From: Ashinkailepas kermadecensis
Taxonomy: Eukaryota; Arthropoda; Thecostraca; Neolepadidae
DNA: 64,000 nt
Assembly (NCBI GenBank): GCA_034440615.1
Contig: JAOTOM010005143.1
Coordinates: forward strand, 696,001-760,000
Direction: 5' to 3'
Part shown: positions 190-50,984 of the stretch, piece by piece
Position numbering within the stretch: position 1 is the stretch's first letter
Layout of the letters: each line of letters begins with the position of its first letter
The notes under the pieces: generated by a model
Seen by the model: only the letters and a program-made list of their open reading frames with translations
What the model was told of the DNA's origin: nothing
Database searches by the model: none
Position numbers and translations under genes: made by a program

Positions 190-1540
190 ACCCGAGACAC
201 GTGAGAAGACTCCGAGCCATCGAAAAGGCCCACAGAGCCGACATGAAGGGCTCCTGAGCCTACGTGAGGGGGGGGGGGGGGAGGGAGCCAACGCAAAGTG
301 CAATGGAATGATGGAGGGGCCCTCAGGTTATTGGGAAGGCCCTCAGGCTGATGAAGAGGTCCCGAGGTCCCGACCAGTAAAGAGGGCCTCTGAACCAACG
401 GAGAGGGCCCCCAGCAACCAAAAGACTCAGAGCCATTGAATAGGGCATCGAACCTCCTGAACGGCCCCTGTGCCGAAGGAGGTCCCCAAGCCGATATGGA
501 GGATCCTGGCTGACTGAGGGGCTCCCGGGTCTTCGGAAGCGCCCCGGCTGACTAAGAGCTACGGCCAGTAAAGAGTTAGTTATTTGGGCTTTAGGGCGCT
601 TCGACCAGAATTGATCATTCGCGGCCAGTAAATAGCGTCCTTGACTCAACGCATAGGACCCTGACCCGATGGAGAGGGTCTCCAGGCACCAGAGATGATT
701 CTCTACACCAGAGGACCCAAGATACGCATGGAAACTAATAATTTGGTTGGAATCAGGGAACTTTACCCAAAAAGTGAAAAATGTGTGCCCTGCTATGGGA
801 AATCCCAGCTCACATACTAAAAATAGGCCCTGTCGGAATGATGGAGAGCCTCGGTTAGTAGAGAGCCCCAAACCAACCGAGAAGGACCTCGTGCTGACGA
901 AGAGGGTCCATGAGCCAGCAGAGGGCCCTGGCTATTGTAGAATATTCCGCGGGTCATCGGAAGGAACCCATGGACCAATATGAACGGCCCCTGGTCCCAC
1001 GCAGGCCCCAAACCGACATGAGGGACCCCTGAGATGACAGGGGGCCCGGGTCATTGGAAGGGCCGTCCGACTGACGGAGAGGACCTCGGCCTGCAAAGAG
1101 GGCCTCTGAGTCGACGGAGAGGGTCACCAGCCATCAAAGGGATCACAAACCATCGGAGAGTACCCAGTGCCGATATTAAGGACCCCTGGGTTGACGGGTG
1201 AGGTGGAAGCTGATATGAAGGTCCTTTAGGCTGGTGGAGGGGCCCCAGCCAGTAAAGAGTGCTCTGAGCCCCACGCGGAGTGCGACCCTGAGCCGACGGA
1301 GGTCCCAAGACCACCGGAGGGTCCAGAGCCAAGACGAAGGGTTCCTGGGGCGACGGAGGAAAAACGAAGGCGAATCCGGCTTGTTTTTTTTCTCTCGATA
1401 TGAAGGGCACCTGCGAAGAGGAGTGGCCGTCGGGTCGTTGCAATGGTCACGGGTTAACGGAGAGGAACCCGGCCAGTAAAGAGGGCCCCTGAGCCATCGG
1501 AGAGGGTACCTGAAGCGACGGAGAGGACGAAGTCGTTTTT
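190..1540. repeat. Degenerate GC-rich short-period repeat, family 1 (CTGAGCCGACGGAGAGGGCC type)
   Basis: About 1.35 kb built of 20-26 bp degenerate units. Recurring words are GAGGGCCCCTGAGCC, GACGGAGAGG and CCAGTAAAGAGGGCC. Spacing is irregular and units are well diverged, so this is an old array or the body of a repeat-rich transposon. It lies in or beyond the ACAT2 intron left of coding exon 5. A related stretch lies at 13,310-13,880, and an inverted one at 10,790-11,130. The minus-strand ORFs across it are products of the repeat and resemble no protein. Confidence 0.7.
573..621 (-). mobile_element. Micro-retroposon copy M1 (49 bp) with 11-bp target-site duplication
   Basis: The 49 bp read TTAGTTATTTGGGCTTTAGG and continue with GCGCTTCGACCAGAATTGATCATTCG. 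They match the core shared by six other short insertions in this window. The flanks CGGCCAGTAAA at 562-572 and 622-632 are identical. Because CCAGTAAA also recurs in the surrounding degenerate repeat, this is the weakest of the seven duplications. Orientation is assigned from the SINE tail it resembles, which is (AACC)n at the 3' end on the minus strand. Confidence 0.6.
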
Positions 1541-1738
1541 ATCCGCATGTTCTGTGGTAGCATGTGTGCGTTGTTATTGGCTCCTGGTGTCGAACTGAAA
1601 CTGAATGCTCCCAGTTCGCCTGTCCCAATGAGTTGCCCTGGTGTCGGCCGTTGGTGCAGCCACACGTGGCCTTCCAACTGAGCCAGACAGGACTCCGACT
1701 CTGACTCTGACGTCACACAGCTATCAGCTTCTCCTCAC

Positions 1739-1968
1739 CTTAATGAAGCACGGTCTGAGCTTGGCCAGCGCCTCGGCCGTGGTGCCGGGTCGTGGAAACT
1801 CGTCCCGGCTGACCTCGACAGTGGCATTGCGAGAGGTCACTTGCACGGGCACCACTTCACCAGCGAACAGTTCAGCGTTCTGCGCCGCCTCGGTCAGGTT
1901 CTGCGAACGGCAGGCGAACTCGTCCTGCTCGGTCCGGCTGATGTTGAACTGGCGAGCGATGTTCTCGG
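1739..1968 (-). CDS. ACAT2: Acetoacetyl-CoA thiolase (cytosolic ACAT2 type), coding exon 5
   Basis: Encodes about residues 164-240 (ENIARQFNISRTEQDEFACR through LAKLRPCFIK), the thiolase region after the HMG(I/V)TAEN motif. The acceptor is ACGGCAG at 1,969-1,970; its two leading bases complete Ala164 begun in exon 4. The donor is AAG followed by GTGAGG after 1,739. The 230 bp equal two bases plus 76 codons, in phase with exon 4. The sequence follows ACAT2 and bacterial acetyl-CoA acetyltransferases (QNLTEAAQ, EVVPV, DEFPR) more closely than mitochondrial ACAT1. The remaining C-terminal part, with the catalytic His and second Cys of the family, must lie left of this window. An overlapping plus-strand ORF is only its antisense shadow. 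Confidence 0.93.
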
Positions 1969-2064
1969 CTGCCGTGCAGAGGTCAGTTCGCACACGGTCA
2001 GATAACACATGAGAGGGGAGCTATAATACTTAGGTCATGGGAAGTCATACTCAGGAAGGGCAGG

Positions 2065-2224
2065 TTATTGGTTATTGGTTTTACGACACATCGGCCGTTG
2101 AGTCATGCAGCGTCGCCAATCTCTCACGCCGATTGGCCGCGGGCGAAGAGTAGCGACAGGTGAGACTCGAACCAACAACCTTTCGATTGTGAGACGGGCA
2201 ACTTACCCCTAGACTACTCGTCCC
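2065..2224 (-). mobile_element. tRNA-derived SINE, family A, copy 1
   Basis: On the minus strand it starts with a tRNA-like head (GGGGACGAGTAGTCTAGGGG, an A-box-like stretch). A B-box-like GGTTCGAGTCTCACC follows, then a body and a tail ending at a GGTTATTGG/TTGG-type repeat. Nearly identical to the copy at 52,436-52,606. Flanked by a 13-bp duplication with one mismatch (CAGGAAGGGCAGG at 2,052-2,064; CAGGAAGGTCAGG at 2,225-2,237). Its tail (TTTTACGACACATCGGCCG then TTGAGTCATGCAGCGTCGCC) is related to the short M1-M7 insertions. Confidence 0.85.
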
Positions 2225-2239
2225 CAGGAAGGTCAGGGG

Positions 2240-3780
2240 TGCTTAACAAGTGTTCAGTTGCTGGTGATGTTCTCCTCGTGGTGTAAGGGTCAGGTCAGGT
2301 TACGCCGGTGGGGGGTGATACTCAGGAGGAAGTGGCACCGTGTCGTGGTGCTACTGACTAGCTATGGTCTCCAGTGCTGGACTCGGGTCAGGAGGGGGGA
2401 GGCTTGGTCAGTCGAAGTAGCGACATGAGAAGGTAATCGGGCTCAACCATCTAATATCAGTGTCCGAGTCTATGACTTTTCTACCACCGTGGGGACAAAA
2501 TATCGCCTCTTATCCATTTTTTCGAGAGCGGATGGTCTGTGTGTGTGTGTGTGGAATGTATCTGCCGATCCTCCCGTTGCGGAAATCCTGGGTACACTGA
2601 TGCTTGCTATACCAAATATTTTCCACGATCTACACCTCGGTTGATTAAATGATCGATTATTTAGGCTTAAGGGCGTGCCGACTACAAGATCACTTTGTGT
2701 CCAATCTACACCTCGGTAAATAATATTATAGCATAGCAGTATGAACATTTTAAAAAAAACCACAACGGTTGATGTCAATTGAGGACTCATTGTGATTGGA
2801 AGGCGGCAAAAGGACGGGTCAATTACAAGGTTTTCAGTTATGGCTTGGGGACAGCGGCGCCGCTACCGGGTGATGGAGCCAGGGGCGACAGGAGGGGGAT
2901 ATAGCCCAAGTCCCCACCATGTGGTCTTGGTTCAAAGACAACCGGGATATGGGAAGGTGCATTACACCCCCACTCCGCTCAACGTTTTTTTTTTATAGCC
3001 GAAGGCACCCCTTCAGAATTCTGCCGCCTGACCAAATACTAGATCAATCAGCCGTCTAAAGCCCCCCCCCCCCAGGTGTGAAAGCCTGGAGACGCCACTG
3101 CTTTGGAAATGGGAAATTTCATAGGATTTCGTGCGATATCTAGAAGGTATTTGGGGGGGGGGGAGAGGCAATGAACCAGTAAAATTATTTGGTGCGACAA
3201 CCTTGATGTTGCATACATTGGTACAGCCGCACAGAGAGATGGACTTCCCAGCAAAAAAAAAACTTTCTGCTGCATTATCTCTATGGTTCTCACAAGTCAT
3301 CATCCATGACAGCGATTCCACTTGTCCTGCATCTCAAAATATCTACCTGTATCAATATCCGACCACCCGTGTCTCCATACACTCGGTCGATCACTGCCGA
3401 ATACTCTGTTCACTGCTGCGCGACGGTGCTGCTGCCTACGAGCCAGATGACGAACTATCAATCAAGTAGCTGCATACGGTCGAGTGTCGTGGAAAAATGA
3501 CGAGGGTGGTGGACACGAGAAGGGGTACATACCTGCAACACCAATATACCAACATATCCGATAGGTGTGTATGAAGGAGCGCCGCCCTTGATGGAAATGA
3601 CAGTGCGAAAAATGAAACATTTCGCGAACCTTGATGACTAAGGCGGGTGGGCAGGCAAAAAATGTCAATTTTTGGGACAAAAAATGGCCTATTTGAACTC
3701 GGCATGCAAAAAAATTGAATGATGCGCGGAAATCGAAGGTCTGAAGCAAAAATGCACAAAGGGATCACCCTACTGGCACA
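2240..3780. other. Non-coding interval, mostly unassigned
   Basis: No supported gene. It holds micro-retroposon M2 (listed separately), a short GT run near 2,537-2,552, and C/G homopolymer runs at about 3,062-3,073 and 3,152-3,163. Around 3,060-3,105 there is a fragment (GGAGACGCCACTGC) that recurs in dispersed repeats elsewhere in the window. The short ORFs show no recognisable domains. Confidence 0.5.
2642..2703 (-). mobile_element. Micro-retroposon copy M2 (62 bp) with perfect 14-bp target-site duplication
   Basis: The insertion carries GATTATTTAGGCTTAAGGGC, then GTGCCGACTACAAGATCAC, the family core. ATCTACACCTCGGT is exact on both sides (2,628-2,641 and 2,704-2,717) and does not extend on either side. 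This makes it a clean target-primed insertion. Confidence 0.85.
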
Positions 3781-4720
3781 GGGGAGCGTGTTCTAGCTGA
3801 GATCTCTTCCCCATTATGATTAACAACATATTTGCCGATTACACCGACATATCACTTCAATATTAACTCTTTTTTTGCAGACGACATAGTCATTTGGACA
3901 ACAGCAACGTCCTTCTAAAAAGCCGATAATGTCATTCAAGCCACACTAGAGCACATAGCAGTGTGGTGTAAAACCTTAGCCTTCACCCTCTCCGCAGAAA
4001 AATCGCCAGTCACACATAGCCGTCGCAGATGCACCAGGAGCCGGTTTTGGCGAAAACCCCCACCCCCATTTAGTGTTCAAATTGTCACGACTCTGTCAAA
4101 TCGGAACTTCACGACGCCAGCCACTGCAGATTAACCGCCTACTAGGCCATTCTGGACCTGAGTCAACAACAGGTCGAGTACTTGTTCTTAGAAAAGAAAT
4201 CGGGTATCACACCGGCTGAAATTATTGGCACTTTGAACAAATTCACCGATATTGACAACCTCAAAACACTTGTATTCACGGATAGGTCAAACACGAGGTA
4301 AAAGTAGGCATCGGCATCACTGCACCAGGTCCTAGGCTTTCCAAGAGTCCACCGGATAACTTTTCCATCTTCATCGCTGAAACAGTGGCCATGTTGACCG
4401 CTATCTCTATACTAAATAAACGCAACACGAGAAACGTAGCAATTTGTCCAGACTCTAAATCGGTCCTCCAGTCAATCAGCAACACTTAGAAATGCCCACA
4501 TTCAGTCTTTGATCGAATCCAACAAGCTGGGTTTCCCGCAAGATAAAGAACATTTCCTTCCTCTGGATTCCGGGCCACGTCAACATTTCAGGAAACGAGC
4601 AAGCATATGGGATGGCAAAGCGAACCTTAGCACCGACCACTTATAACAGCATGGAATGGAGGGTAGACGATTGCAAAGCACCCACCTCTACAACGTCACA
4701 TACATAAGCATCACCGGAAC
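3780..4720 (+). pseudogene. Degenerate non-LTR retrotransposon fragment, RT end plus RNase H (I-like clade)
   Basis: The plus strand carries broken frames of a LINE polyprotein. The RT catalytic block reads FFADDIVIWTTAT near 3,870-3,905, followed by AVWCKTLAFTLSAEKS near 3,957-4,005. An RNase H domain follows from about 4,268, where VFTDRS replaces the usual VFTDGS, with GIGITAPGPRL and ICPDSKSVLQSI in frame near 4,305-4,480. The RNase H end signature IPGHVNISGNEQA is near 4,567-4,605. RT followed by RNase H is typical of I and related clades. Several stops and frameshifts make it dead. The minus-strand ORF at 4,276-4,485 is a shadow of the RNase H part. Confidence 0.8.
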
Positions 4721-6780
4721 ATATGGACACAGCACAGCTCTACACCTCACCGCTCCAACCACACTTACATCAACTCAACGCTACGAAAACGCATCAGCTC
4801 AACGGGGAGGGGGGAGGGCAGGGGGGCCATGGCCCACCCACTTTTCAAAGTGGGGGGCCAACAATGGTAGCTGGCCATCCCACTTTTGAGACATTTAAAT
4901 TTCCCAAAAAGCAGCATGCACCAGTCATAAAATAATGGTTTTTCGTTAGGTGTGGGATGTCGAAACGAGCACAGCAAGATGTCGAAATTTGTGATGGGAA
5001 CATGCCAATTAAAAATAGTTTCAGTCCTTCAAACTCAATTGTCAGCCAATTGTGTACTCACAAGTGCATGCTTTTCGTTTCATTTGAAAGACATTTAAAA
5101 TAGGGATACCTATGCTAATGATAACGATTGCAATACCATGCTATCAACAGGTGACATTGCTTAACGAACCACATCACAGGTAATCTCAGTAACTGGAACT
5201 GTGTTATGAGATGCTGGTCTATAACAATCCATTATGGTGAGCATGAGCATGCTATTTTACACGAAATACTCTTCGAAGCGAGTCGTGAAGACTTCATAAG
5301 CATACAACAAGCACGATGTGGATACTTTCTGGGAATGGATGTCTATTCTGCGCTCAGAAAGTGGTACATTTCACCCTATTTCGCGAATAACTTATCACTG
5401 GCATGCATACATTTGAATTTGTGAAAACTCCCTGCAATATATAACTAAGTAAAAGCTGCACATATAATATCGTAGCACTTCATGTTTAAGTCATGCACAC
5501 TTGGACATGACCTTGCAACAACGCAACTAATTCAGGAGTTCGTGTAATGAAACAGATGTGTGGATATTCAAACCATATATTATGTTATGAAAAGACTATA
5601 AAGCAGATAATGTGCCAGCCTGTACCAAAATACATTTATACTAGAGTTTCACGGTGGTTCTTTGACTGTTAACATACTTCACATCGATTTCATTAATATT
5701 GCCTACAGTATAAAATTATAAAGGTTGAAGGCAGTAACGTAACACAATCAAGGTAAGACACACAATTCGCAAGAGCAAGTTCCTTGCCTTGATATTACAT
5801 TGTCATGTATTATATATGACCTTGGTCCTAGTTACTCGACTTCAACATTTACATGTAATTTGATTATTGAAGCATAAAAATTACTCCACGATACATCCAT
5901 TGCGTGACTGTAGTATGGAATAAAACGTTAAAATTTCCATACATTTCAATGGATTTTCAGTTGTGCAAAGCACACAGATGTCCAATCTTTTGAGTGAAAT
6001 GTCTGGGTATCATCGGTACTGGCATCCAACATAGCAAAACACTTATTTCCACCATTTATTATGGTAGCATATATACAATAATGAAGTCCACACCCTATTA
6101 TATAAACTTCAAGTGCGAGAACACATCTTAGAATCTCAAAATCCCTCGAGAGGATTAGGCGCTCGTGATGCGACCTGACAAGGTCACATGAGAAGTTATA
6201 TGAAGAGCGGTGATGTGACGAGTGACGAGTGATGCTTGTCATGTGACCTGAGAAGGCACATGACGAGCATGGCAACTGACCCGAGTGGATCTTCAGCTGG
6301 GTAACTGCTTAGTAGCATTGACAGCACGTTATATATTGAATTCAAATTGTGTCGTTCAACAGAAATGGTTCGGTCAGATGGTGGGATCATGGTATACGTA
6401 ACAACATCTGCTTAGCAAAGACTGATCCCAGAATATGTTCAATGAAGACATTTGGATTGGTATTTGGTTCAGGGGCGCATCGGCTGCGTCGGTCATGCAT
6501 CAAGACATTTGGATTAAAAGTAGTAAAACACATAATTACAACGGAGACTTTCCAGGCTTTTCATCGTCCAGTGATGTGTACGTCCAGGCTGAAATTGAAG
6601 AACACCGAATATAATAAAAATAAAGATAATGGATGAATTTAGGCTAATTGCAGGGTGTATATTTTGAACACTACTTGTGGTGCAAGCAGTTAAATCGGCA
6701 TAGGAAAGTCGAGTTTGTGCGATGTATTCCATAGACGTCATTGTTAGGCTATAAAATCTTTGGGGCATGCGAAGTGGCGG
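4720..6780. other. Non-coding interval, mostly AT-rich
   Basis: About 2 kb with no supported gene. A G-rich segment at 4,803-4,890 (GGCCCACCCACTTTTCAAAG) resembles one at 10,545-10,575 and is probably a dispersed repeat. The rest is single-copy-looking AT-rich sequence with short random ORFs, apart from micro-retroposon M3. Confidence 0.45.
6459..6501 (-). mobile_element. Micro-retroposon copy M3 (43 bp) with perfect 14-bp target-site duplication
   Basis: Contains GGTATTTGGTTCAGGGGCGC, then ATCGGCTGCGTCGGTCATGC. AAGACATTTGGATT is exact at 6,445-6,458 and 6,502-6,515. One of the shortest members of the family. Confidence 0.85.
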
Positions 6781-6789
6781 ACTGAAGGG

Positions 6790-9440
6790 GGCACTGGAGC
6801 AGCCCTCCCCCTTGAGAGGTTATGGGCCCCCAATTATCGCGCTGGTGTTCGGAAAAAAGCGCCAGACTCCCCAAAATCCTGGTGACCCCAACTATCGCAC
6901 TGGGGCCCATAAAAATCACATTGAGGCCTCAAAAAGTCGCGCAAGGGCCCTGGAAATGACGTTGGGCCCCAAAAATCCCACCAAGGCCCCTGAAAATCAC
7001 ATTGGGTTAAAAGAATAGTTCCGGGACCCAAAAAATGATGCTGAGGGCTTCAAAATGCGGGACTTGAAATTTAGGCCCTTGAAAATACCGCTTGGCCCCA
7101 AAGTAGTCGCGCCGGGGCCCCGAAAAGTCGAGCCAGGACCCCAGAAAATCACGCTAAAGGCTTAAAAGATCTGGCCTAGTCCCTGGACATCACGCTGGGG
7201 GCCAAAACGTCTCGCTGGGCTCCGAAAATGACGCTGGGCCCCAAAAGGACAGGCCGGACCTTCAAAATCACGCAGGGTCCCAAAAGGTTGGGCCGGAGCC
7301 CCTGATAATCGCGCTAGTGCCCCACAAAGTCGGACCGGGGCCCCGGAAAATCACGCTGGGAGCACAAAGAAATCGTGCCAGGATCCTCACAAATCACGAT
7401 GGGGCCCGCAAAAAGATGGGCTGGACACCTGGAAATCACGCTGGGGGCCTCAAAAGTTCGCGCCTGGGCCCAGAAAATCGCGCTGGGGCCGAACAGCGTG
7501 CCAGGGTTCTTGAAAATCACAACAGGGATCCCAGAAGGTTGGGCCGTGACCCGTGAAAATCACGCTGAGCCTGAAGGTACCAACAAGTCGCGCCTGGGCC
7601 CCTGAAAACCACGCTTGGGACTCGACAGGTCGCAGCGGGGCCCCAAAAGTCTCATCGGGAACACCCAATAAATGAAGCCGGGGCAACGACAAAACAATCC
7701 GGACATGGAAAATCACTATGGTCCCGGCAATCGCTCCAAAAGACACTAAAACATGTTGGGCCCCCAAAAACGTGTCCAGGCCACTAAAACTCTCGACAGG
7801 CATCCCAACAAATGACGACATGGTAGAAAAGCCGCACATAGACCCAAAAACGTCGCGCCGCTACCCTTGGAAATCACACTAGGGGCCAAAAATGTAGCGC
7901 CGGATACCCACAAGTCTCAGCTGGCTTCTCAAAAATCGATTCCTACCCGGAATATCACTCTGCAGCCACAAAAATGGCGTCAAAGGCCCCAAAACTACGT
8001 CGGGCCCCGGAAAAGAAGCACATGAGAGCACTAAAAAAGGAGCCACTGGGAGCCCCAGAATCGTACCGGGGCCAAAAAATATCACGCAGGAGGCTTACAA
8101 AAATAGAAGTCGACTCCACAAAATCACATAGGAACTCCATCGAGTTGATCTGAGCACTGGAAAAAATCAGAACAGGTCCCGAAAGAAAGTTCTCCTAAGG
8201 GCCTTTCTACTGTGAAGGGTGCCATCGGCTGAAAAAAAAACTCGTTGAGCAGCCGCAGTGGTATACCAAAGAGGCAAATGCCCTCTCCCCTCCATCCTGA
8301 AGAATGGATATAATCCAAGAATCCCAAAAATCCAAGGCTCCCGAAAATCCAAGAATCGCGTCGCGGTCAACCAAAAATGGTTCTGGGGCCCCATAAATTC
8401 GCTCCGGGGCACCCATAATTAGCGGTTGCAAATAAATGCTGCGGGCACCAAAACAAACTTGTATCGGGCCCGAATTTGCGCCGGGAATGCCAAAATCGCG
8501 CTGGGCCCAGATAAGTACGACGCGCCCCGCGAACTAGCGCCAAGCCCCTTAAATATCGCGCTTGGGACCCACAATTCCTGTCGGTAGGTCCCATAAATTC
8601 TGGCTGGGTTATAACAAATTCCCCTTGGGGCTCCCACAAATTGACGTCGATGGCCCCAAATAAGCACAGCGTGGCCACAAAATCGCATCGGGACCCGATA
8701 AGAATCAAGCCGGAGCCCGCCAAAATAAAGAGAGATTCCGAAAAATAAATGTCCGAGCCAGGAAAATCTCTCCTTAGCCCAACATATCACCAGATGCCTT
8801 AACAAATCGCATACAGCACCAAAAAAGTACCGGAGCTCGAAAAATCGCGGCGGGACACGAGAACATGTCCCCATCCCCTAAAAAAAAACAGGGCTTGGCT
8901 CGGATTTTACATAATTCAGAAGTCACTCAAAATTGCATCGAGCCAAGAAAACCGGCGTCGGATCCCCCCGGAACCATGCGCATTGGTCCGAAAAGTCGCG
9001 ACGGGACCCCGGGAAATTATACCGGAGCCTACAATATCGTGTTGGGGTCCCACAAATTCGAGCGAGGAACCCCAAATAAACAGCGGGACCCTGAGAGCAC
9101 AATTGGAGGACGAAAAAGCACCGGGTCCCCCAACGCGTACGGAGTTTGGTAAAATGCGGCAGGGCCTTAAACCATGCGTTGCAGCTCTAAATAAACGCAC
9201 CGGGAGCTAAAAAACACACACAACGGGGCCTTGAGACTGCATGGGGTCTCAAAACCAGACTGGGCCCATACAAATCGACATGGTCCTAGATAAGGAACAA
9301 AAAGACCGTGCATCAAATAAACACTTCGGGTCTGCGAAAACACGCCGCCACCTATACAAATATCGTCGGTGCACAAAAAAGCAGCAAAACTCTATAAAAA
9401 AAAAGACCAGGGGTCGCAAAAATGTGCCGGCCCTTAACAC
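6790..9440 (+). repeat. Dispersed repeat with degenerate CCCCAAAATCGCGCTGGGGC units, family 2, long copy
   Basis: About 2.65 kb of 20-26 bp degenerate units, each with a GGCCCC core followed by AAAAATCGCGC-like sequence. It is a defined dispersed element, not only a local array. Segment 8,700-9,430 aligns collinearly with 37,559-38,311, including CATGCGTTGCAGC, AATAAACGCACCGGGAGCT and GGTGCACAAAAAAGCAGC. Segment 8,400-8,720 aligns in reverse with 39,580-39,790. The ORFs on both strands are repeat artefacts. It lies in the ACAT2 intron between coding exons 5 and 4. Confidence 0.75.
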
Positions 9441-10580: not shown

Positions 10581-10740
10581 ACGCATATGGACGCATTCGA
10601 CTGTTGGGTCATATAGTGTCGCCAACCCCTCACACCAGCTGGTCGCGGGTGAACTAGGTAATCCCGCCGACTGTGGGATTTGAACACACGATCTTCCGAT
10701 CAAGAGTCCAACTCCTACCGACTGAGCTACCGCGGCCCCC
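10581..10740 (-). mobile_element. tRNA-derived SINE, family B, copy 1
   Basis: The minus strand starts GGGGGCCGCGGTAGCTCAGT, then CGGTAGGAGTTGGACTC (tRNA A-box-like). TGTGTTCAAATCCCAC follows (B-box-like), then GGCGGGATTACC. The body GTGTGAGGGGTTGGCGACAC and then TATATGACCCAACAGTCG is related to family A and to the micro-retroposon core. Read as a SINE rather than a functional tRNA gene because the head runs into the SINE body and copies recur at 21,640 and 31,418. Confidence 0.75.
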
Positions 10741-10789
10741 AAGACTTCGACTTGTGCCCCCGCCGTCTGCCCAGACCCTTCGTATTCGC

Positions 10790-11130: not shown

Positions 11131-12570
11131 TCACCCGAAGGCATCCTTGAGCGCCTAATTTCTTGTGTGTTTCGCCACGACCTATGTTGAAACACAATGT
11201 ACTCAACGGTCCGTTTGGGCTCCTTCTGGGCCAAGGGGCATGACACCCCCGGATCCGCCCGTGACGTCTGCCCAGTAATTTACACCAGCTGACGGCGCAC
11301 ATGTGGCGTTCACCAGGCCATCGGCGGGGACAGTGGCCTGATGCAGAGCTACACCCGCACATTGTCCGCTAATGAACACGGAACCGGCACACGCGCCGGC
11401 TAAACACCACACGCCACCGTGACTAGCTCAACGTTGGCTTCCTCAGCTGTTACAGTTAAACGGTGTCCAATCAGGGGCGGTTCTGGTCCTCGGTGAGTGG
11501 GTAAATTGATCTTACCCTGTCAGATCTTACCCCCCCCCCAAACGAAAAAAGAAGAAGAATGAATCCGGTCACTCTATTTTCCGGTCTAATAAATACATCA
11601 TTTAGCTCAAGTATTTTTAGCACATAAGGAAAATGAATACCCCAGCGTTCCACAAACTTGGGTCGTTCCAAGGATTAACCAGCTGATTTCAGCAGACAAG
11701 TGGGCACTGCCTATTGACGAATCCATGTTAGTTCTGCCTTCCCGCCAGTCGTGGGACTAAAGTTAAGTTATGGGTAAGTAAGTCACACGCGACCGTGTGA
11801 ACGGTGCATTCTGTCAATGAAATGCCATTTCCATGCTGCCTAGTTTATACTGTCTTAGTTCATAGCGCAGACCAGCTCCTCACGGATCATATTTGCTACT
11901 TAGCATTGATATGCATACTCAGAATATTGGAGAAAAAAATACAAAGTTTGATGTTGAAAATTAATACATATCGTATATCAGTGGTTTAAAAAACTACATT
12001 GATTGATTGATTATTTGGGCTTAAGGGCGCGCCGACTACATGGTCATTTGGCACCCATTTAAAAAACTACATCAAATATGGCATATAACTAGTTCCATTC
12101 CATATTTGACGGCCTATGCTTATAACACAGCACTAGTTGACAGATCTAGCATACGAGGTAAACTAATCTAGCATACGAGGCAAACTAGTTCATCGAATAA
12201 TTAATGAGATTTTAATAAGACGTTTCGATGCAATCAAGTGCAGACATCGCATCAAGCTTAGTTTGCCTTCAGATTGAATACTTTTTGCCACTGTCCCATC
12301 AAGATATATGCCAAAAATTTCACACAAAATGAAGTTCCACAAGCATGAAAATTTGGTAAACTATGCTTACCCAGGTTGCCCTTGAAAACCACCCTTATGT
12401 TCAATTCCCGCAAGGAATATCGACGATAGAAGTGTCCGATATGAAAGCTGGTCACAGGGCACAGTGCGCTTAGCAAACAGGGATACGGCTGCGAGTAGTT
12501 AATCAAGCTGACACGCTTGGTAGAAAAACAGACTAGCCAGAGGAAAATCAGCGTTGTCACTGTTCTTCAG
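11130..12570. other. Non-coding interval in ACAT2 intron 4
   Basis: No supported gene. The ORF near 11,203-11,412 has no recognisable domain. A C run lies near 11,530. The interval contains micro-retroposon M4 (listed separately) and a short local repeat of CTAGCATACGAGG at about 12,147-12,182. Confidence 0.45.
12000..12057 (-). mobile_element. Micro-retroposon copy M4 (58 bp) with perfect 15-bp target-site duplication
   Basis: Contains TGATTGATTGATTATTTGGG, then CTTAAGGGCGCGCCGACTAC. TTTAAAAAACTACAT is exact at 11,985-11,999 and 12,058-12,072. This is the clearest case in the window, with a tetranucleotide-like tail on the left side. Confidence 0.9.
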
Positions 12571-12571
12571 C

Positions 12572-14409: not shown

Positions 14410-18665
<4,256 letters not shown>

Positions 18666-18767
18666 CACAGCACAGCGGCCACTGACGACCACCCACTGGC
18701 ATGTGGCTACGTCACGGCACTTACCATGAACACAGCTAGACACAGATGATGCACACTCCCGAGATGT

Positions 18768-18824
18768 TAGTTAATTATTGGGGCTTTAGGGAGCATTGAC
18801 TACATTGGTCATGGAGCGCCCAAA
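18768..18824 (-). mobile_element. Micro-retroposon copy M6 (57 bp) with 14-bp target-site duplication
   Basis: Reads TAGTTAATTATTGGGGCTTT, then AGGGAGCATTGACTACATTG, then GTCATGGAGCGCCCAAA. Flanks CACTCCCGAGATGT (18,754-18,767) and CACTTCCGAGATGT (18,825-18,838) differ at one base. Confidence 0.85.
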
Positions 18825-19028
18825 CACTTCCGAGATGTAACTAGGAGCACCAGCCAACCGACTTCACCCTTAAACAATCATGTTAGGGTTAGCATGCGAA
18901 AACGAATAACACACACAAAAATCAAGCTATATTGCCAGCACTGTACTGTGTTTGATGCTATAGTCATACTGTACATACCTTAGTGCCGGTTAATTGCCAG
19001 TAGTGTGGTCATGCTGACCTGTACTAAC

Positions 19029-19990: not shown

Positions 19991-19999
19991 GCACTCAAG

Positions 20000-21620: not shown

Positions 21621-21639
21621 GAGAGGTTGGCAACTTATC

Positions 21640-22704: not shown

Positions 22705-22815
<111 letters not shown>

Positions 22816-22910
22816 CTTGTGTTGTTTGTATTCACCAATATTGTTGTGCTTTTTTAGTCCTGTGCACATCACTGAGCATGCAAAAGGCAATATAAACATA
22901 CTACTTAAGG

Positions 22911-23067: not shown

Positions 23068-23278
23068 TATCTAGCTTATCCAGTGAACTATTAACAAATC
23101 TACTAATGCCTAATAACCCATGCTAACATTTAAGTGACACAAGTGACCTGAAGGACAATGTGAAGCATGTCTGCGAAGCATACGTAATCTCAGAGATTGG
23201 CTCTCGCCGTGTAAATGGCGATTTTTAATTATGAGGCCGATGGATTTTTTTCTGGGTCAGACACTATCTTCCTGACCC

Positions 23279-25900: not shown

Positions 25901-26089
25901 AAAGGCAGATGTGTATAGAACTGTGTTCTGTATGCAATTAAGATTCACTAAGGACATGCAAAGTCTGGAGAAGCACATAACGTTGCTTGTCTTTTACATT
26001 GGACAGTTTTTAAACCTTTTCTTTTTGGGGGGGGTGCGAATCTTATACTTATTTAAATAAAAATTGTGGTCTTTTCAAAAACAGAATAT

Positions 26090-26770
26090 ACCAGGCTATG
26101 TTAGGCTAGGTTAGGTTAGGTTTTTAAAGTAAATGTTTATTTTTCAGAAAACAAATTGTTTTAAAATGTGGTATTATTGCAGTTTGAGGTATCCATGACA
26201 AGTTTTACACACCTTTTACCTCCATGAAGCAAAGGAGTTAGGATTGGTCAGGTCAGGTAAGGTTATGCTTTCCCCAAAAATGGAAATACTTCTTTAAAAT
26301 GAAATTTTCTATACAAAAACAGATCGGGCCAGGTTAGGTTAGTATGTCATACTGTGCAAAAAAAAATTGAAAAAAAGTTGGTAATTTTTTTAGTACAAAA
26401 TAACCTGTTTTTTTTTTGCATGGAAGGCTAGGCTAGGTCAGGTTAGGTTAGGTTATCTTACATTTTTTATTTTGAAAATTACTTGTATGCTATATACCCA
26501 ACTCCAAGCCCCCTTTAGGGTGTTATTTTGCCTCCCACCTGAAAAGTATGCATTTGCAGAGGAAATAAGTGGCTGCATCATGTTAACCATATTCATAAAC
26601 ATTTCATTGGATAAAAACATAAATTGAAAAATTACATTGAACTTAAAATTTACCCCAAAAAATTAAGATTTTTCCTACATGGAAGGCTAAGCTAGGTTAG
26701 GTGGTATTCTTGTAGTTTAAGGTATCCACACAGCAAGTTTTACACACATTATAACCCAACAATATTATAT
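26090..26770. repeat. AT-rich dispersed repeat with TTAGG-like strings, left of LINE A
   Basis: Contains TAGGTTAGGTTAGGTT-like strings near 26,105-26,122 and 26,435-26,455. The segment near 26,505-26,615 (TTATTTTGCCTCCCACCTGA, TGCAGAGGAAATAAGTGGC) recurs directly at 33,345-33,450 and inverted near 31,690-31,760 and 31,990-32,045. The interval also carries CCTCCATGAAGCAAAGG, which recurs near 33,200 in inverted form. Unclassified transposon family or sub-repeat cluster into which LINE A inserted. Confidence 0.6.
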
Positions 26771-26774
26771 ATCC

Positions 26775-27176
26775 AAGGTTACAGACCTGGTCCAAGTGGT
26801 CGCACAGGCCACCAGTGAAAACCAGTTTAGTACAGTTATAGTGCAGGTAGGAGTGAACAACTTACGTCCTGCTAGGAGTGAGGAGCTGATGCAGGACTAC
26901 AGGGCCCTTCTGGCCACCCTGAAGCAAAGCAATAGCAGGGTTATTGTGACAGCTATTCTGCCTAGGGCTGGAGTCTCCCCTGAGTGGAGCTCTAGGGCAC
27001 TGGCAGCCAATGTCAGGGTAGGTAGGCCCTGCAATGAGTTAGGTTTGACTTTCGTTGACAAGTGGTGCAGGTTTTATGGCTCATCTGACCTCTATCAGAG
27101 GGATGGCCTGCACTTCTCCGAGAAGGGGGTGCAAGTGTTAGGCAAAGTATATGAACATGTCCTTCAGGGAAACTAG
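26775..27176 (+). pseudogene. LINE A ORF1 remnant: SGNH/GDSL-type esterase domain, 5'-truncated
   Basis: The frame encodes VTDLVQVVAQATSENQFST, VIVQVGVNNLRPARSEELM, SRVIVTAILPRAGVSPEWSS and DGLHFSEKGVQVLG. It ends at TAG 27,174-27,176. The spaced GxNN and DGLHxS motifs are those of the SGNH-like hydrolase domain found in ORF1 of several CR1-group LINEs. Its role there is uncertain, with lipid or nucleic-acid interaction proposed. The amino end of ORF1 is absent, so the insertion is 5'-truncated at about 26,775. Any in-frame Met is internal. Confidence 0.8.
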
Positions 27177-27184
27177 ATAATGGG

Positions 27185-30100
27185 GTGGGGAGGGAAGAAT
27201 TGGCATTGCCATCTCAGGGATATGCCAATAGTGACAGCATACGCAATAGAACCTCACAGTCAGCAAATAGGGGTAGCAGTAGATCAAGGGGGCAAAGTGG
27301 TAGCTCATCCAGAGATGATAGAGCTACTCAACATGAAAAAGCCAAAGAGGGTCATGGAACTTTTGTTAAGTGTATGATGCTTAATGCTCAGAGCATTCGA
27401 TCCAAATTTGATGAGTTCAGGTGTTATGTTGCTGAGGAGAAACCAGATTTTGTTTGCATTACTGAGGCATGGGTCAGTGAGGGATATTTTGGGGATAACT
27501 TGCAGGACTATGAGATCCAGGGATACAATATGTTTCCATGCAATAGGGGTCCAGCAGTGAAAGGGGGTGGTGTAATGCTCTATGTGAATAGCTTATACAA
27601 TTCTCAAAAAGTAGCAGATGGGGTAAAAAATGTGTCTGTGGAGTCCATTTGGCTTGATGTTGCTGTGGGAAAAGGCAACAGCAATAAACTGAGGATAGGA
27701 GCTTTGTATCGATCAGGAACCTTGCCACATTCTCAGCAACTGGAGCTCGATAAGGTGATTTGTGAGGAAATCAGTAGAAACTTTCAGAGGAAATGCCTTA
27801 TTCTTGGTGACTTTAATCTAAAAGGATATGAAAATGTTGGTGTTGGCTCCCATCATGTAAACTGTTTAGGAAATGCCTTGAAGAGGACTTGTTCTTACAC
27901 CAGTTTGTAATGGAACCAACCAGGCAGGGCTCATTCTTGGACCTTGTCTTCTCAGATTTAAGTGATTTAGTTCAAGACTTGACTGTAGGAGAAACTCTGG
28001 GAAGAAGTGACCATAACATAGTGCGATTTAAGGTATAAATAGCAGGGACAATCAAGGATAATTTGGCAAAGATTCCAAATTGTAACAGGGCAGACTTTGA
28101 CTGCATGAGAGAGGCTTTAAGTGCCATAAAATGGGACGAATAATTTTTGTATTTAAATGCCTGTGAAATGTGGGAAAAATTCAAATCTTACTTGAGGGAA
28201 ATTCAGATTAGACATGTCCCCCAAAAGCAAAGGCGCAAAAGAAGGGTAGGAAAGCCATCATGGCTTACACCAGATCTGATGAGATCAATTAAGGCTAAGA
28301 AATATGTATTTAGAGTATTTAAGGAAGCTTGAAATATCGTAAATCTAAGGTCATATCAAAAAGCTAGAGATGCTGTGAAGCAGAAAACCAGAGCAGCAAG
28401 GCGAGCAAAAGAATTGGATTTGGCTAGGAACTGTAATGGGGACAGTAAAAAGTTCTTTAGTTTCTACAAGCTAAGTAAAGTTTCAAGCACAATTGGTCCA
28501 CTGGAAGTAAATGGGACTATATTGAGTGAGGATGGTGAGATGGTTGAGGAGCTGAGCAAGCAGTTTAAATCAGTGTTTACAGTGGAGGATATGACAAATC
28601 TGCCAACTGTGAACCACATTTCAGTGACAGGTGATCAGATACACGATGTTGATTTCATTGATAGTGATGTTGTTTTCAATTATATCAGAAAAATAAAGCC
28701 AAACAAGGCAGCAGGACCTGATGGAATTTATGCTAGGGTATTGTGGGAAGCTGAAAAGGAACTGGCAAGTCCACTTAGTATATTATTTTGTAGATCAGTT
28801 TCACAAAATGAAATTCCAACAGATCGGAAAAGGGCAAATGTAGTTCCTATTTTCAAGAAAGGAGAAAGAGGGAAAGTTGAAAATTATAGGCCAGTAAGCC
28901 TCACATCCCTAGTCTGCAAGGTACTCGAATCAATTATCAAGGATAGAATAGTTAGTTTTCTGGATGGAAACAGATTGATTCAAGATACTCAACATGGGTT
29001 TAGAAAAGGGCGATCGTGTCTCACAAATCTCTTGGACTTTTTGAATTTTGCTACAGAACAATTTGATCAGGGAAATCAGGTTGATGTACCATATCTTGAC
29101 TTTAGTAAGGCCTTTGACAAGGTACCCCATAAACGGTAAATGATGCAGCTTCAGGTCCATGGCATTGCAGGTAGCATCCTAAAATGGATAGAGTTGTGGC
29201 TTTCCTATAGACAGCAGAGAGTGATGCTAAATGGTACAAAGTCATCATGGCAAAATGTTCTTAGTGGAGTCCCTCAGGGGCTGGTATTGGGGCCACTATT
29301 GTTCATTATATTTGTGAATAGCATTGAATGTGGCCTAAGCAGTAAGGTTTTGAAATTTGCGGATGATTTGAAGATCTTTAGGGCAATAACAGGGCACAAT
29401 GAGCAGGTTTTGCTGCAGAACGACTTAGACGAGCTAGTGAAGTGGTCCGAAAAATGGCAAATGAAGTTTAATTTTGATAAGTGCAAAGTCATGCATGTAG
29501 GTAGGGAGCATATGAAGGCGCCATACTTGATGGGTGGCCAAGTACTATCTGTGACTCAGCAGGAGAAGGACTTAGGTGTTATTTTCAACACAAAATTGGG
29601 GGCATCAGAACAGACCAAAGAAGCCAGGAAGAAGGCACTAAGAATGCTTGGGGCAATACAGAGGAATGTGTCATACAAAAGTGAGGAGGTCATCAAGAAG
29701 CTTTACTGTGCATATGTCAGGCCACATTTGGAATACTGTGTCCAAGCTTGGTCCCCTAGTTATGAGAAAGATTGTTGGCTTTTAGAGAGAGTACAAAAGA
29801 GGGCAACAAAAATGGTTAATGGTATAGGCAACCTGGCATATGAGGAAAGACTGAAGAAATTGAATATGTTTTCACTTAGATATAGAAGGCTGAGAGGAGA
29901 TCTCATCGAGGTTTGTAAATTTGTTCATGGTCAGGAACAGGGATATCTCAGGGAAATGTTTGAATTTAACAGAAATGATGCAATTAGAGGTCATCAATTC
30001 AAAATTAAAGTTAATCACAGCAGGACAAGGTTAAGACAGTCTTTCTTCACGAACAGGGTAGTAGAACACTGGAACCAGCTGCCAGGAACCATTGTCAGTT

Positions 30101-30246
30101 GCAATACACTGAACATCTTTAAAAACGGCATAGACAATCATTATAAGAATAGGGGATTGTTTTTCTGTATTCCAGGGAGGGTTGATCGACAGGGAGGAGT
30201 TGGGAGTTCGGAGGAGTTTGTAATTGTTGAGTGTGTTATGCAATAG
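27185..30246 (+). pseudogene. LINE A ORF2: endonuclease plus reverse transcriptase, CR1/Jockey-like, recently inactivated
   Basis: Domains in order: an apurinic-type endonuclease at 27,375-28,040 (NAQSIRSKFDEF, ITEAWVSEGYF, LILGDFNLKG, and SDHNIVRF after a frame change); a linker (QKQRRKRRVGKPSWLTPDLM); then the RT. RT blocks are NKAAGPDGI, NYRPVSLTS, HGFRKGRSCLTNL, motif A YLDFSKAFDKVPH, GVPQGLVLGPLLFI, and motif C LKFADDLKIF near 29,350-29,380. The C-terminal region has YVRPHLEYCVQAWSP and LERVQKRATKMV. Lesions are few: a frameshift near 27,860-27,905 and stops near 28,037, 28,141, 28,331 and 29,137. The catalytic Asp residues survive, so it died recently or is a young truncated copy. Confidence 0.93.
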
Positions 30247-30745
30247 CAAGTGAGTCTCTTATTAAGTCTAAAAGCTTTATAACTTTATATAGGGTGTACC
30301 TAGCATTGGATTCAGCACCTTCCTTCGGGATGTGATACTGATGAGCTTGTCTATGGTAGCACAATGGGTATGATGGGAGGAGTTTGTAATTGTTGAGTGT
30401 ATTATGCAATAGCAAGTGAGTCTCTTATTAAGTCTGAATGCTTTATGAATTTGTGTGAGATGTGCCTAGCAGTGGATTCGGCACCTTCCTTCGGGATGTG
30501 ATGCTGATGAGATTGTTTATGGTGGCACGATGGGTATGATGGGAGGAGCTTGTGATTGTTGAGGGTGTTATGCGGTAGCAAGTGAGTGGTGCTAGATAGG
30601 CTGGGATATATAGCTTCCTAGGAACTTGGGATAAGGGATTGATTGGGGTGGGAGTATGTACATTTCTAGTACCTTTTCCAGATAGGCTTAACCCAGATGG
30701 GCCCCTGTGGCTCTTATTAAGCCTTAATACTTTATGACTTTATTT
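30205..30745 (+). repeat. LINE A 3' region with about 165-bp tandem triplication
   Basis: GGAGGAGTTTGTAATTGTTG begins near 30,212 (inside the ORF2 end), again near 30,376, and as GGAGGAGCTTGTGATTGTTG near 30,541. Each unit includes GCAATAGCAAGTGAGTCTC and CACCTTCCTTCGGGATGTGA. The element probably ends near 30,745 after CAGATGGGCCCCTGTGGCTC and TTATTAAGCCTTAATACTTT, a string with relatives at 9,641 and 34,050. Confidence 0.75.
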
Positions 30746-31417
30746 ATGACTACACACACAATGTAGATAGATGCCTATAAATGCTTTCTATAAATATGTT
30801 TACAGTAGGTACCATCATGTGTGAACAATGTAAATAAATGTGCATAAATGCATGTCTTGGATGCAGTAACATTTAAGGTGAATCAAAAAGCCTATGTTTA
30901 GCAAGACATGACATGACACAGATAATAAAGTATGGCAGTGAGAATTTGACAATAGATGGAATTGCTTTTTGTGGTTTGATGAAGGGTTGTACCTGAATAT
31001 ACACCAGAAGCAAAGTAATTTTCAACTGTATTTTATAATCATGAAGGAAAGCTCATCATATAATATTGATGACATAAAATGCTCCTTGCCAGAGTGCTAA
31101 ATAATGTATTAACACAATTTAATTCCATGAAGTGAACAAAGAGGTTAGGCTTGGCTAGCTTATGCTTTTGTAAGTTAGAAAAAATTGTCAAAACATTTTA
31201 TATGTTAATTTGTGTTCTACAACATGTCAGGCTAGGTGAAGTTATGTTTGGTTTGGTTAGGTTCCATTAGATTAGGTTTTTAAGTTGGAGGTTCTTTAGA
31301 AAAAATAGAAAATTTTTCATTTTCAACAAGAATGTGTTTTCTTGCATGGGAGGTTAAGTGGTAAATTTGCAGTTTAAGGTAAGTTCTAACTTCTTGAAAT
31401 TTCTTTCTTTAATGCAA

Positions 31418-31597
31418 GGGGCCACAAAAGCTCGGTCAGTAGGGAGTTGGACTCTCGATCATATGCTCATGGGTTTGAATCCCACAGCCGGCAGGATTAC
31501 CGAAACCACCTACAACCGCTAGGCGTGAGAGGTTGGAGACTTTACATGACTCAGTAGGTGGATGAGTAGTAAAAGAGCTCCAGTACCACCACCACCA
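31418..31597 (+). mobile_element. tRNA-derived SINE, family B, copy 3 (complete)
   Basis: GGGGCCACAAAAGCTCGGTC, then AGTAGGGAGTTGGACTC (A-box-like), then GGGTTTGAATCCCAC (B-box-like), GGCAGGATTACC and GGCGTGAGAGGTTGGAGAC. The body ends in a CCACCACCACCA tail. Flanks AATTTCTTTCTTTAATGCAA (31,398-31,417) and AATTTCTTTTATGCAA (31,598-31,613) are an imperfect target duplication. Confidence 0.8.
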
Positions 31598-31634
31598 ATT
31601 TCTTTTATGCAATGTTTATGAGTGTGCTGAGCAT

Positions 31635-31673
31635 TGGGGTTTAGGGGTGCATCGACTGCAGTGGTAATGCAGC
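31635..31673 (-). mobile_element. Micro-retroposon copy M7 (39 bp, shortest) with perfect 14-bp target-site duplication
   Basis: Reads TGGGGTTTAGGGGTGCATCG, then ACTGCAGTGGTAATGCAGC. AGTGTGCTGAGCAT is exact at 31,621-31,634 and 31,674-31,687. It lies just after SINE B copy 3 but on the opposite strand, and is the only copy outside the ACAT2 gene span. Confidence 0.85.
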
Positions 31674-33479
31674 AGTGTGCTGAGCATGATGTGACCACTC
31701 ATTTCCTCTGCAAATGCATACTTTTCAACTGGGAAGCAAAATAACACCACCAAAGAGGTTTGGAATTGGGTAATGTATCATAAAAAGTAACATTCAAGAT
31801 AAAGAAAAAAGATGACATAACCTTACCTAACCTAGCCTAACCTTCCACAAGATTAAGCATTCCTTTTTAATGAAAAATTTCCAATCATTTTTTAAAACTA
31901 ATTTTTTAAGTAAAAAAACTATTATTGGAGATCAAGGTAAAATTTGATACTTTGGATTTTGAATACGATGTATTTTTAAGGTGAAAAAGACAACTTGACC
32001 ACTCATTTTCTCTGCAAAGGATTACTTTTCATTTGGCAAAGAAATACACGATCATAATCACATATAATTATCTGTACCTGGTGTGTGAGACGTGATAAAG
32101 AAGAAATGGACTCTTCATGTCAACACTTCATGGACTCAATTCAATACTCTGACATCAAAAGCAAACTTTTTTTCCAGCCAGATGCATCATTAACCTTCGA
32201 TCAAGGCCGGAAGTTCCTTGCGATGCTCTTAATGTTAATGGCAGAGCTAACAATGTAGCCTTTGGCCATGATGATGTCATGGCCAAAAAGTTTGTTTTGG
32301 GAATGATTCTGGTTTTCTGGTTAGGTTAGGTTATATTATGCTATAATATATTTTATATATTATGCTACATTATCTTGATCAAAGTTAGGTTAGGTTATTA
32401 TATGTTTTGTCTATGATTTATATTTCCGTATATAATTTTTGAAGTCTTGATTATAAGCAGAACTCAGTAGACAATGTCTCCTGCAATATCTACAGCAAAT
32501 GTCAATAAACAAACCAGATACAGCCACATGCTAGATACAACACATATCAGTATAAGTTTAGCTTTGCCAGGTGTGGGCTGAGCTCCAGTATCTCACATAA
32601 TTAGTAAGCTTTCTTTTGAGGACAGTCATGCAAGTTTATAATTTTTCTGACAACACAGTGTCATTCCCAGTGAGGCTATTTGCTCAAATTGTTCAAAGGT
32701 CTGTCAGTATTTGTTGATTTTTAAGGAATTCCATGGCCACAAGATTCATAATTTCCTTCTTGAAGCATCAAAGCTTTATAAGCCACGGTCCAAATGCAGT
32801 GCTGGTCCATCCGACACCATCAAGGTACAAACAGACAAGCCACAGCCCAGACAATACCATTAAGTTATGTAAATGTTTGCAGCGTTAACTGATGAAATGC
32901 TGCTTATATCATAGCACATTTCCTCTGTATATTGTGTATGACATCAACTGTATCAACAACCTTTGACTTAAAAGTAATAATTTGCAGAGAAAATCAACAG
33001 TCACATTGTCTTCACCACATAAAGAACGTTGTATTAAAAAAAAACAAAGAATCAAATGGTACTTCGATCTCCAAATTTACCAAAAAACCTACCCTAACCT
33101 AATCTAACCATGAATGTTTTGGAAACAAAATAAATTGTTAGGGAACATTTTATTAAAAATTGCCAATTTTTCTAACTTACAACTAACCACCCTCTGCATG
33201 CTTCATGGAGGTAAAATGGGTGCAAACTTCTCTCATGGTTAGCTTACACTGTAATATTACATATTAGGCTAGTCATTTAGCTAGGTAATGACACAGTTTA
33301 AAATGTATTTTTAACATTACATGTTATGCTATATTACCCAACTCCAAATGCCTTCTTTGCTGTTATTTTGCCTGCCAACTGAAAATATTGCAATTGCAGA
33401 GGAAATTAGCAGCCACATCATGCTAACCACATTCATAAACATTGCATTGGTAAAAAGAACATTCCAAGAATTAAAGAAC

Positions 33480-50980: not shown

Positions 50981-50984
50981 AGAT

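Follow-up and report, generated by a model that had tools for sequence, protein, structure and literature searches.

Hairpin-only inserts between target duplications in the genome of Ashinkailepas kermadecensis, probably derived from the 3' end of a LINE

Introduction

Assays have established that stringent-type LINEs require a 3' stem-loop. This stem-loop serves as their recognition element, and in UnaL2 it is followed by short tandem repeats, as excerpts of two reports describe (PMC4176376, PMC5135761). Preferred truncation points have been described, again in excerpts, for SVA, a human element mobilized by a LINE (PMC10681720, PMC12593883). We have analyzed a 64-kb stretch of A. kermadecensis DNA (contig JAOTOM010005143.1, positions 696,001 to 760,000; hereafter, the window), in which a first-pass annotation had pointed out seven short inserts between direct repeats. 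In these inserts, nature appears to have run a minimal-substrate test repeatedly, a hairpin and tail alone being copied and inserted. Hairpin-only inserts of a LINE were not found described in the open-licence literature that we searched.

Results

Seven short inserts in the window

A profile built from the seven inserts matched nothing else in the window strongly: their E values are 1e-15 to 9e-9, and the next match had an E of 0.05. This search recovered the same seven that had been annotated, with limits refined to lengths of 39–64 bp, and the original observation is confirmed, including the single orientation, as all seven are on the minus strand. The annotation had printed the antisense strand, on which the TATTTGG side is the 3' end and the GCGCCC side the 5' end of the insert. 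In the sense direction, an insert has a hairpin (GGGCGC...GCGCCC) followed by a linker; in most, a tail of tetranucleotide repeats, for example (AACC)n, comes next, and such a tail is at least partly present in five of the seven.

Four inserts are flanked by perfect duplications of 14–15 bp, as previously stated: 2642..2703 (62 bp, decayed (AATC)-type tail; duplications 2628–2641 and 2704–2717, 14/14), 6459..6501 (43 bp, no clear repeat tail; 6445–6458 and 6502–6515, 14/14), 12000..12057 (58 bp, (AATC)n tail; 11985–11999 and 12058–12072, 15/15) and 31635..31673 (39 bp, no tetranucleotide tail; 31621–31634 and 31674–31687, 14/14). Of the other three, the insert 576..621 (46 bp; 562–575 and 622–635, 13/14 identical, score 11) has a 14-bp duplication with one mismatch. 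The perfect 11-bp duplication of the annotation was not reproduced: the insert 18768..18823 (56 bp) has one of 15 bp with one mismatch (18753–18767 and 18824–18838, 14/15, score 12), and the insert 16287..16350 (about 64 bp, (AACC)n tail) has a weak, perfect one of 8 bp (16279–16286 and 16351–16358, score 8), which is unconvincing by itself. The null for these scores was obtained from 5000 places drawn at random from the window outside tandem arrays, which inflate it; scores of at least 14, 12, 11 and 8 occurred 9, 38, 70 and 486 times, respectively. Against chance, the duplications of four inserts stand at less than 0.2% and those of two at about 1%.

The seven-fold shared orientation is probably a matter of chance (about 1.6%), because the family is strand-balanced genome-wide: one family 20-mer occurs 818 times in forward and 836 times in reverse orientation, and its reversed control 0 times. 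An Rfam search of the window gave no match at the inserts and found only the tRNA of the SINE described below, and viral contigs gave 0 matches to the exact tail pattern of the inserts.

The hairpin terminates a LINE

The same hairpin terminates a LINE with a C-terminal RNase H domain, about 100–125 nt past its stop codon. Long copies carry the hairpin and tail of the inserts together with a LINE frame containing RNase H (PF00075, E 5e-12 in locus L039). RVT_1 plus RNase_H was found in 3/3 homologues examined, the RVT_1 assignment coming from the homologues and not from the genome pieces analyzed. A 3' end shared with a LINE is expected of a 5'-truncated retrocopy, and the inserts have the hairpin and tail of this one. 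In L061, L068 (twice) and L007, the distance from the end of LINE protein similarity to a related hairpin is 37–132 nt. These sequence comparisons show the LINE ancestry of the inserts.

The layout of a stringent-type 3' end, in which a stem-loop shared with a SINE is followed by a tandem-repeat tail, is present in the LINE, the inserts and the SINE. Pairing holds for 92.5% of cells in the hairpin alignment, with a covariation score that 1/500 shuffles reached; the pair types were no better than shuffles (395/500), nor were the two pairs with two-sided changes (250/500), both of which come from the two SINE rows.

The comparison element is a tRNA-Val-derived SINE, present in full length on the minus strand at 52439..52607, with A- and B-box matches, a 3' hairpin of the same layout and an (AACC)n tail; a second full-length copy lies at 2061..2226, also on the minus strand. 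Its 3' end is related to that of the inserts, but the lower stem and linker differ. Among uncut SINE profile matches, 6/10 were full-length or nearly so. No tRNA was found beside insert copies by ARAGORN in 60 of the 98 loci, the single tRNA-Val (L050) belonging to a SINE about 850 nt away. The annotation had described the inserts as lacking A and B boxes; this holds for the consensus, but isolated box matches occur in 3/7 window copies. Thus, the box scan of the consensus, Rfam and the tRNA scan of those 60 loci gave no sign of a tRNA, 5S or 7SL head with Pol III boxes. A MITE or other DNA transposon was ruled out, because the duplications are of 10–16 bp rather than of fixed length and the 3' arm lies inside the insert, with linker and tail after it, so that terminal inverted repeats are lacking.

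Two length classes and a sharp 5' edge

The loci examined were taken from the shortest contigs, where LINE body is commoner than genome-wide: of the first 100 copies in the list of the family (TCGA), which are on short contigs, 31 carry it. Thirty copies chosen by their 3' end only comprised 23 short copies with duplication (one of which, L090, includes 30 nt of LINE), 4 LINE-body copies and 3 in neither class; 13 of the 23 begin at -1, and among these 13 are two that form an inverted local duplicate. Adding the copies with a matching tail in the other loci examined gave 35, 7 and 6 (n=48). When the 100 nt upstream were compared with the LINE, the similarity values formed two groups, at most 11 and at least 24.5. 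There are two separate length classes among the loci examined.

A duplication score of at least 9 was found in 55/86 copies versus 3/254 mismatched flank pairs. The 86 copies were reduced to 83 loci, in which L007, L025, L028 and L029, duplicates of one insertion, were merged only in part. In 51 de-duplicated short copies, the duplications are mostly 10–16 bp and 36 are perfect; the earlier view of retroposed inserts with target duplications is upheld, and LINE machinery is their probable maker. The 5' ends of these copies lie at -1 (16), -2 (8), 0 (4), +1 (3), +2 to +6 (9), -7 (3), -3 (2) and elsewhere (6). The sharp 5' end proposed for the GCGCCC side (GGGCGC in sense) was thus found, and a continuous spread of 5' ends was not seen among the loci examined. 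The edge is not absolute, because ends at +1 to +8 within the 5' arm are common, and one insertion, found in several duplicated loci, ends at -32.

In 35 hairpin-intact short copies, T is present at -1 in 34, A at -2 in 18 and T at -3 in 10, the last being the background level, versus TTAT at the same upstream positions in 16/16 LINE-body copies. There are few bases at -2 and -3 that differ from the LINE (G, C or AA), and untemplated base addition at the 5' end is therefore only suggested. The 5' ends of LINE-body copies are scattered from -32 out to at least about -1500; single-piece similarity overstates the upstream reach of L060, L066 and L068, for which joined alignments to the LINE reach -647, -537 and -98, respectively. 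The spread of 5' ends over the element that is expected of retrocopies is seen only in this class, and the short class has its peak at -1/-2, the defined and repeated 5' end that is expected of a SINE.

Variants and subfamilies

Variants with (AACC), (AATC), (AACT) and (CCA) tails all yield short copies with duplications, and the sharp edge is repeated in variants not selected for it. The variant duplication search tolerates two mismatches, with a null of 13/220 at score 9, and because of this null the variant loci L020 and L065 are weak; two rows at locus edges were left out of the variant table, and tandem or nested copies account for its ends at 15, 22 and 33. Because several combinations of hairpin and tail make short inserts, repeated production by LINE machinery is favoured over one independent element.

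In the TCGA family, we estimate that about 217 of 1136 hairpin-intact copies have the LINE upstream word and about 80% are without it, an estimate based on the finding that the TCGA list contains 31 of the 32 word-bearing places listed for contigs up to C1425. A LINE-body share of 224/2249 was rejected, since the 22-mer used mixes the TCGA and TCAA subfamilies. The TCAA subfamily has the same 5' arm and loop, and its copies have [GT]TA upstream in 814 of at most 1113 cases, with bases read to -4. Since this subfamily mostly runs on upstream, the hairpin by itself does not give hairpin-only inserts, and such a sister with a nearly identical hairpin provides a natural contrast. Of the 221 copies of an ATCGCAG variant, only 11 have the LINE upstream word.

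Discussion

We consider it somewhat the better bet that the inserts are retrocopies of the LINE 3'-terminal hairpin, linker and tandem-repeat tail, copied from a discrete RNA that starts at the hairpin base. The protein of the LINE with the C-terminal RNase H domain would bind the terminal hairpin and, with nicked target DNA as primer at the tail, start cDNA synthesis. Its template would be a short RNA that begins at the hairpin base (with U at -1 and in some cases A at -2), and the insertion would leave a 10–16 bp duplication. The short RNA would most likely be a stub of the LINE RNA, the body of which may be trimmed up to a hairpin shielded by folding or bound protein. The edge is on the far side of the hairpin, which fits an RNA end because a stop caused by structure would be expected tail-side or inside the hairpin. 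The nearly one-base edge thus leads to a testable statement on the end of the template RNA.

A less probable but serious reading is that the enzyme sets the boundary: the template would be full-length LINE RNA, and a LINE protein anchored at the hairpin would release it after copying the hairpin, in the manner of telomerase, which stops at the boundary of its template. This would account for the sharp edge without RNA processing, and the proteins of the subfamilies could differ, fitting the TCGA/TCAA contrast; however, the tRNA-Val SINE, of the same hairpin layout though perhaps paired with another LINE, is copied through in the full-length or nearly full-length matches, and the same family includes LINE-body copies.

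We think it unlikely that the inserts are an independent micro-element, as the first-pass annotation had considered. In this reading, the RNA of ~50–60 nt would come from a gene of its own or from a source copy that perpetuates itself, and LINE protein would move it in trans, making it the smallest SINE-like element. The sharp 5' end, the estimated 80% of TCGA copies without the upstream word and the rarity of this word in the ATCGCAG variant would suit it, but the consensus lacks Pol III boxes, LINE-body copies share the hairpin, and several micro-element genes would be needed because multiple variants yield short copies and related hairpins are LINE-linked.

Ordinary random 5' truncation of the LINE, strongly biased to very short cDNA and with no special template end, is improbable. 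LINE copies are generally cut at varied 5' points (excerpts of PMC3747384), SVA hotspots are on record and a few ends lie at -7, -32 and about -98, but short ends cluster within a few bases while LINE-body ends scatter. Extreme 5'-truncated SINE tails, also proposed at first, scarcely merit retention despite the related hairpin and same tail of the window SINEs, and were rejected on the differing SINE 3' end, the match to the LINE end and the absence of adjoining tRNA in the loci scanned.

Returning to copying from a discrete RNA, the inserts hint that the LINE enzyme can use the hairpin on which it docks as a template by itself. More tentatively, the hairpin and tail might be a self-sufficient retroposon of ~40–60 nt, a discrete RNA unit protected and copied by LINE protein, and a possible raw half for the birth of a SINE on joining a small RNA. 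Its size would then be below that of every retroposon known to us.

Comparison with known systems

ZfL2 belongs to the L2 clade, whereas the LINE here has an RNase H domain. As in UnaL2/UnaSINE of eel, ZfL2-1 and ZfL2-2 of zebrafish and SART1 of silkworm, a SINE of the same genome shares the 3' layout; hairpin-only inserts are very frequent here, whereas the excerpted descriptions of those pairs contain no such class (PMC4176376, PMC5135761). Ordinary 5'-truncated LINE copies resemble the inserts in the 3' end, the kind of duplications and the missing 5' end, but have spread 5' ends, as do the LINE-body copies of the same family, instead of nearly one position. SVA hotspots are likewise preferred points; the edge of the inserts falls at the base of their terminal hairpin. 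Mammalian tailless retropseudogenes have no tail, whereas most window inserts are at least part-tailed and their source is a LINE end. Lastly, tRNA-derived SINEs are, like the inserts, short and non-coding with a LINE-like 3' end and duplications; the inserts differ in being 39–64 bp long, without an RNA-gene head and without A and B boxes in the consensus, and correspond to the half that a SINE must gain from a LINE.

Inserts in the window and copies in the genome

The first-pass annotation had claimed seven short inserts flanked by target duplications, and all seven (576-621, 2642-2703, 6459-6501, 12000-12057, 16287-16350, 18768-18823 and 31635-31673) are present on the minus strand, with strong duplications in four and fair ones in two; the claim is weakened for the insert at 16287, whose duplication is weak. 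The best-preserved insert reads TTGGGCGCTGTATGATCAACGCAGTCGATGCGCCCCTAAGCCCAAATAACCAACCAACC in the sense direction, in which a hairpin (GGGCGC...GCGCCC) is followed by a linker and often by a tetranucleotide tail. A profile of the seven revealed no eighth strong copy in the window, the next match (E 0.05) being the 3' end of the tRNA-Val SINE at 52.4 kb.

Searching the genome (908 Mb) with the core, as the annotation had proposed, gave 1654 exact copies of one 20-mer on both strands (818 and 836), and the reversed control gave 0 genome matches. We examined 98 loci from three samplings (8 + 60 + 30), which are biased by being drawn from the shortest contigs first. Comparison of 68 copies revealed two kinds: LINE-body copies, which run upstream into a common sequence, versus short copies, in which a duplication adjoins immediately. 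The common sequence extends to the 1.5 kb limit of the fetched flank in the longest copy, and its open frame, which carries an RNase H domain, ends roughly 100-125 nt ahead of the hairpin. Reverse transcriptase and RNase H were present in three of three homologues examined; the barnacle Amphibalanus amphitrite accounts for two of the best 120 homologues (55% identity) and the spider Araneus ventricosus for one (34% identity).

The 5' edge of the short copies

For each copy, the region from 60 nt upstream of the hairpin to 24 nt into it was compared with the 65 nt after the hairpin, and the best pair was scored. Duplications scoring at least 9 were found in 55 of 86 copies versus 3 of 254 mismatched pairs; the flanking repeats, for which a check against chance had been set, are thus better than chance. 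After duplicated DNA was merged and LINE similarity was scored, 83 loci were divided into 51 short copies with a duplication, 19 LINE-body copies and 13 unresolved ones. The similarity scores split into two groups (up to 11, or from 24.5), and L028, with a score of 24.5, was placed among the short copies though bearing 30 nt of LINE. The fairest picture comes from 30 copies for which the 3' end was the only selection criterion; of these, 23 are short (including L090, which bears 30 nt of LINE as L028 does), 4 LINE-body and 3 unresolved. When tail-matching copies from the other examined loci were added, 35 short, 7 LINE-body and 6 unresolved copies were obtained among 48.

Counting from the hairpin base at GGGCGC (negative, upstream; plus, inside the hairpin), 13 of the 23 short copies start at -1, two of these being an inverted local duplicate. 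The 5' ends of the 51 short copies lie at -1 (16), -2 (8), 0 (4), +1 (3), +2 to +6 (9), -7 (3) and -3 (2), with single copies at -32, -14, -9, -5, -4 and +24. Among 35 short copies with intact GGGCGC, T occurs at -1 in 34, A at -2 in 18, and T at -3 and at -4 in 10 each, against a surrounding background of 27.5% T and 24% A; LINE-body copies have TTAT at the corresponding positions in 16 of 16. Because -1 is T in nearly all, -2 is A in about half, and -3 and -4 are near background, the copied unit ends at -1 and partly at -2. The LINE-body copies reach upstream to -32, -189, -512, -593, -777, -1145, -1257, -1436 or the fetch limit, and joined alignments take L068 no further than -98, L066 than -537 and L060 than -647.

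Still shorter inserts, starting inside the hairpin at about +24/+25, occur at L038 (duplication of only 8 bp), L077 (12 bp) and L049, where two such copies stand in tandem by eye. At C521:5373-5595 (L095 and L096), one insert with its duplication is found twice, inverted and about 150 bp apart, as if a local inverted duplication had followed the insertion.

Variants and subfamilies

A profile search over the examined loci and the window found 30 further copies having neither search pattern (six lie in the window) and 0 copies in the reversed sequence of the same material. Other loops and other tails occur among the 30. Under a looser rule allowing two mismatches (null, 13/220 at score 9), 12 of them, including six window copies, have a usable duplication; they start at -2 (3), -1 (3) and +2 to +8 (6), and none between -50 and -3. 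LINE protein similarity stops 37-132 nt ahead of related hairpins in 4 of the 30 copies (L061, L068 twice and L007), and at L066 an insert adjoins or sits within a LINE frame. Several LINE subfamilies thus have this 3' end in common, and several variants give rise to short copies. By eye, the repeats that follow related hairpins at L045, L068 and L007 are of three nucleotides, (CCA)n or (CAT)n, rather than four.

Genome-wide, GGGCGCTGTATGACCAACGCAG has 2249 exact copies, with T at -1 in 2147 and A at -2 in 1637. These mix subfamilies: 1136 continue with TCGA and 18 with TTGATGCGCC, and TCAA is the other large class among the matches listed. The LINE upstream word is present in 224, about 217 of which are estimated to be TCGA; by this estimate, a LINE body is present in about 19% of hairpin-intact TCGA copies and not visible in about 81%. 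For the ATCGCAG variant the word is found in 11 of 221. In the TCAA class, 814 exact copies of at most 1113 go on upstream as [GT]TA ([GT]TATGGG), and this class is therefore mostly longer than the hairpin. The 814 copies are seemingly denser on short contigs.

The hairpin and the tRNA-Val SINE

The fold of the consensus (-14.3 kcal/mol) has two stems, of 6 bp and 4 bp, with a 4-by-2 internal loop between them and a loop beyond the second, a stability matched by 8 of 200 shuffles; the (AATC)-tailed variant has the identical layout, with 16 of 200 shuffles as stable. Over 12 sequences, pairing cells amount to 92.5%, a level reached by 7 of 500 shuffles, and two-sided pair changes are no more numerous than in shuffles, so that pair-count support is mixed.

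The window has two full-length tRNA-Val SINEs (52439-52607 and 2061-2226), and diverged older partial copies were matched by profile at 10597-10714 and 31444-31582. Both Pol III boxes are present in the SINE at 52.4 kb, the one copy box-tested. At the 3' end of both full-length SINEs there is a hairpin of the insert layout with other lower-stem letters; the layout is identical to the insert consensus, yet this hairpin is no more stable than its own shuffles (57/200). The SINE profile gave 13 matches at 12 places (L010 and L075 being one), two of which are cut by a locus edge. Since six of the ten uncut places hold full-length or almost full-length elements, the SINE does not as a rule occur as hairpin-only copies; two others are older and partial but retain body sequence, and L051 and L072 cover only the 3' half.

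Other features of the window

Adjacent to the SINE at 2061-2226 is a minus-strand frame matching the thiolase N-terminal domain (1727-2020; PF00108, E 2e-24). A nuclear hormone receptor ligand-binding domain is encoded on the minus strand at 57489-57923 (PF00104, E 1e-11), with a second piece at 54129-54533; by eye, we take these frames to be RXR-like. The former directly adjoins a 30-bp minisatellite (57783-60600). A long 14-bp minisatellite array (48251-51000; 181 overlapping 300-nt matches) has repeat-peptide long open frames on both strands. Two large nested imperfect inverted repeats are found at 37579-39558 (arms of 69-315 nt, 85-91% complementary) and 35186-36634 (63-151 nt, 86-89%).

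Possible origin of the short copies

Copying would begin at the tail, and the 3' arm would be the first part of the hairpin that the enzyme reaches. If structure halted the enzyme, ends would be expected before the hairpin or within it; an edge just beyond the 5' arm suggests that either the template ends or the enzyme is released there. Judging from the sequences, we lean towards the former, with an RNA stub protected by its fold or by a putative bound protein probably serving as the template. We favor this stub over a boundary set by the enzyme, letting go just past the 5' arm, which would give the same edge and is a distinctly less probable reading. An independent small-RNA gene could also supply a template ending there; it is improbable, because several variants of such a gene would be required. 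The TCAA result is against a simple story: if this class is a LINE subfamily, a near-identical hairpin is insufficient for hairpin-only insertion, which suggests a role for some property of the protein or for the fate of the RNA.

Among the papers listed by our searches of an open-licence library, none dealt with hairpin-only LINE inserts. Passages in the nearest literature describe LINE copies as generally truncated at a variety of positions (PMC3747384) and report truncation hotspots for SVA (PMC10681720, PMC12593883). Others describe zebrafish LINE proteins binding such stem-loops between the endonuclease and the reverse transcriptase (PMC4176376) and a stem-loop needed for several LINEs (PMC5135761).
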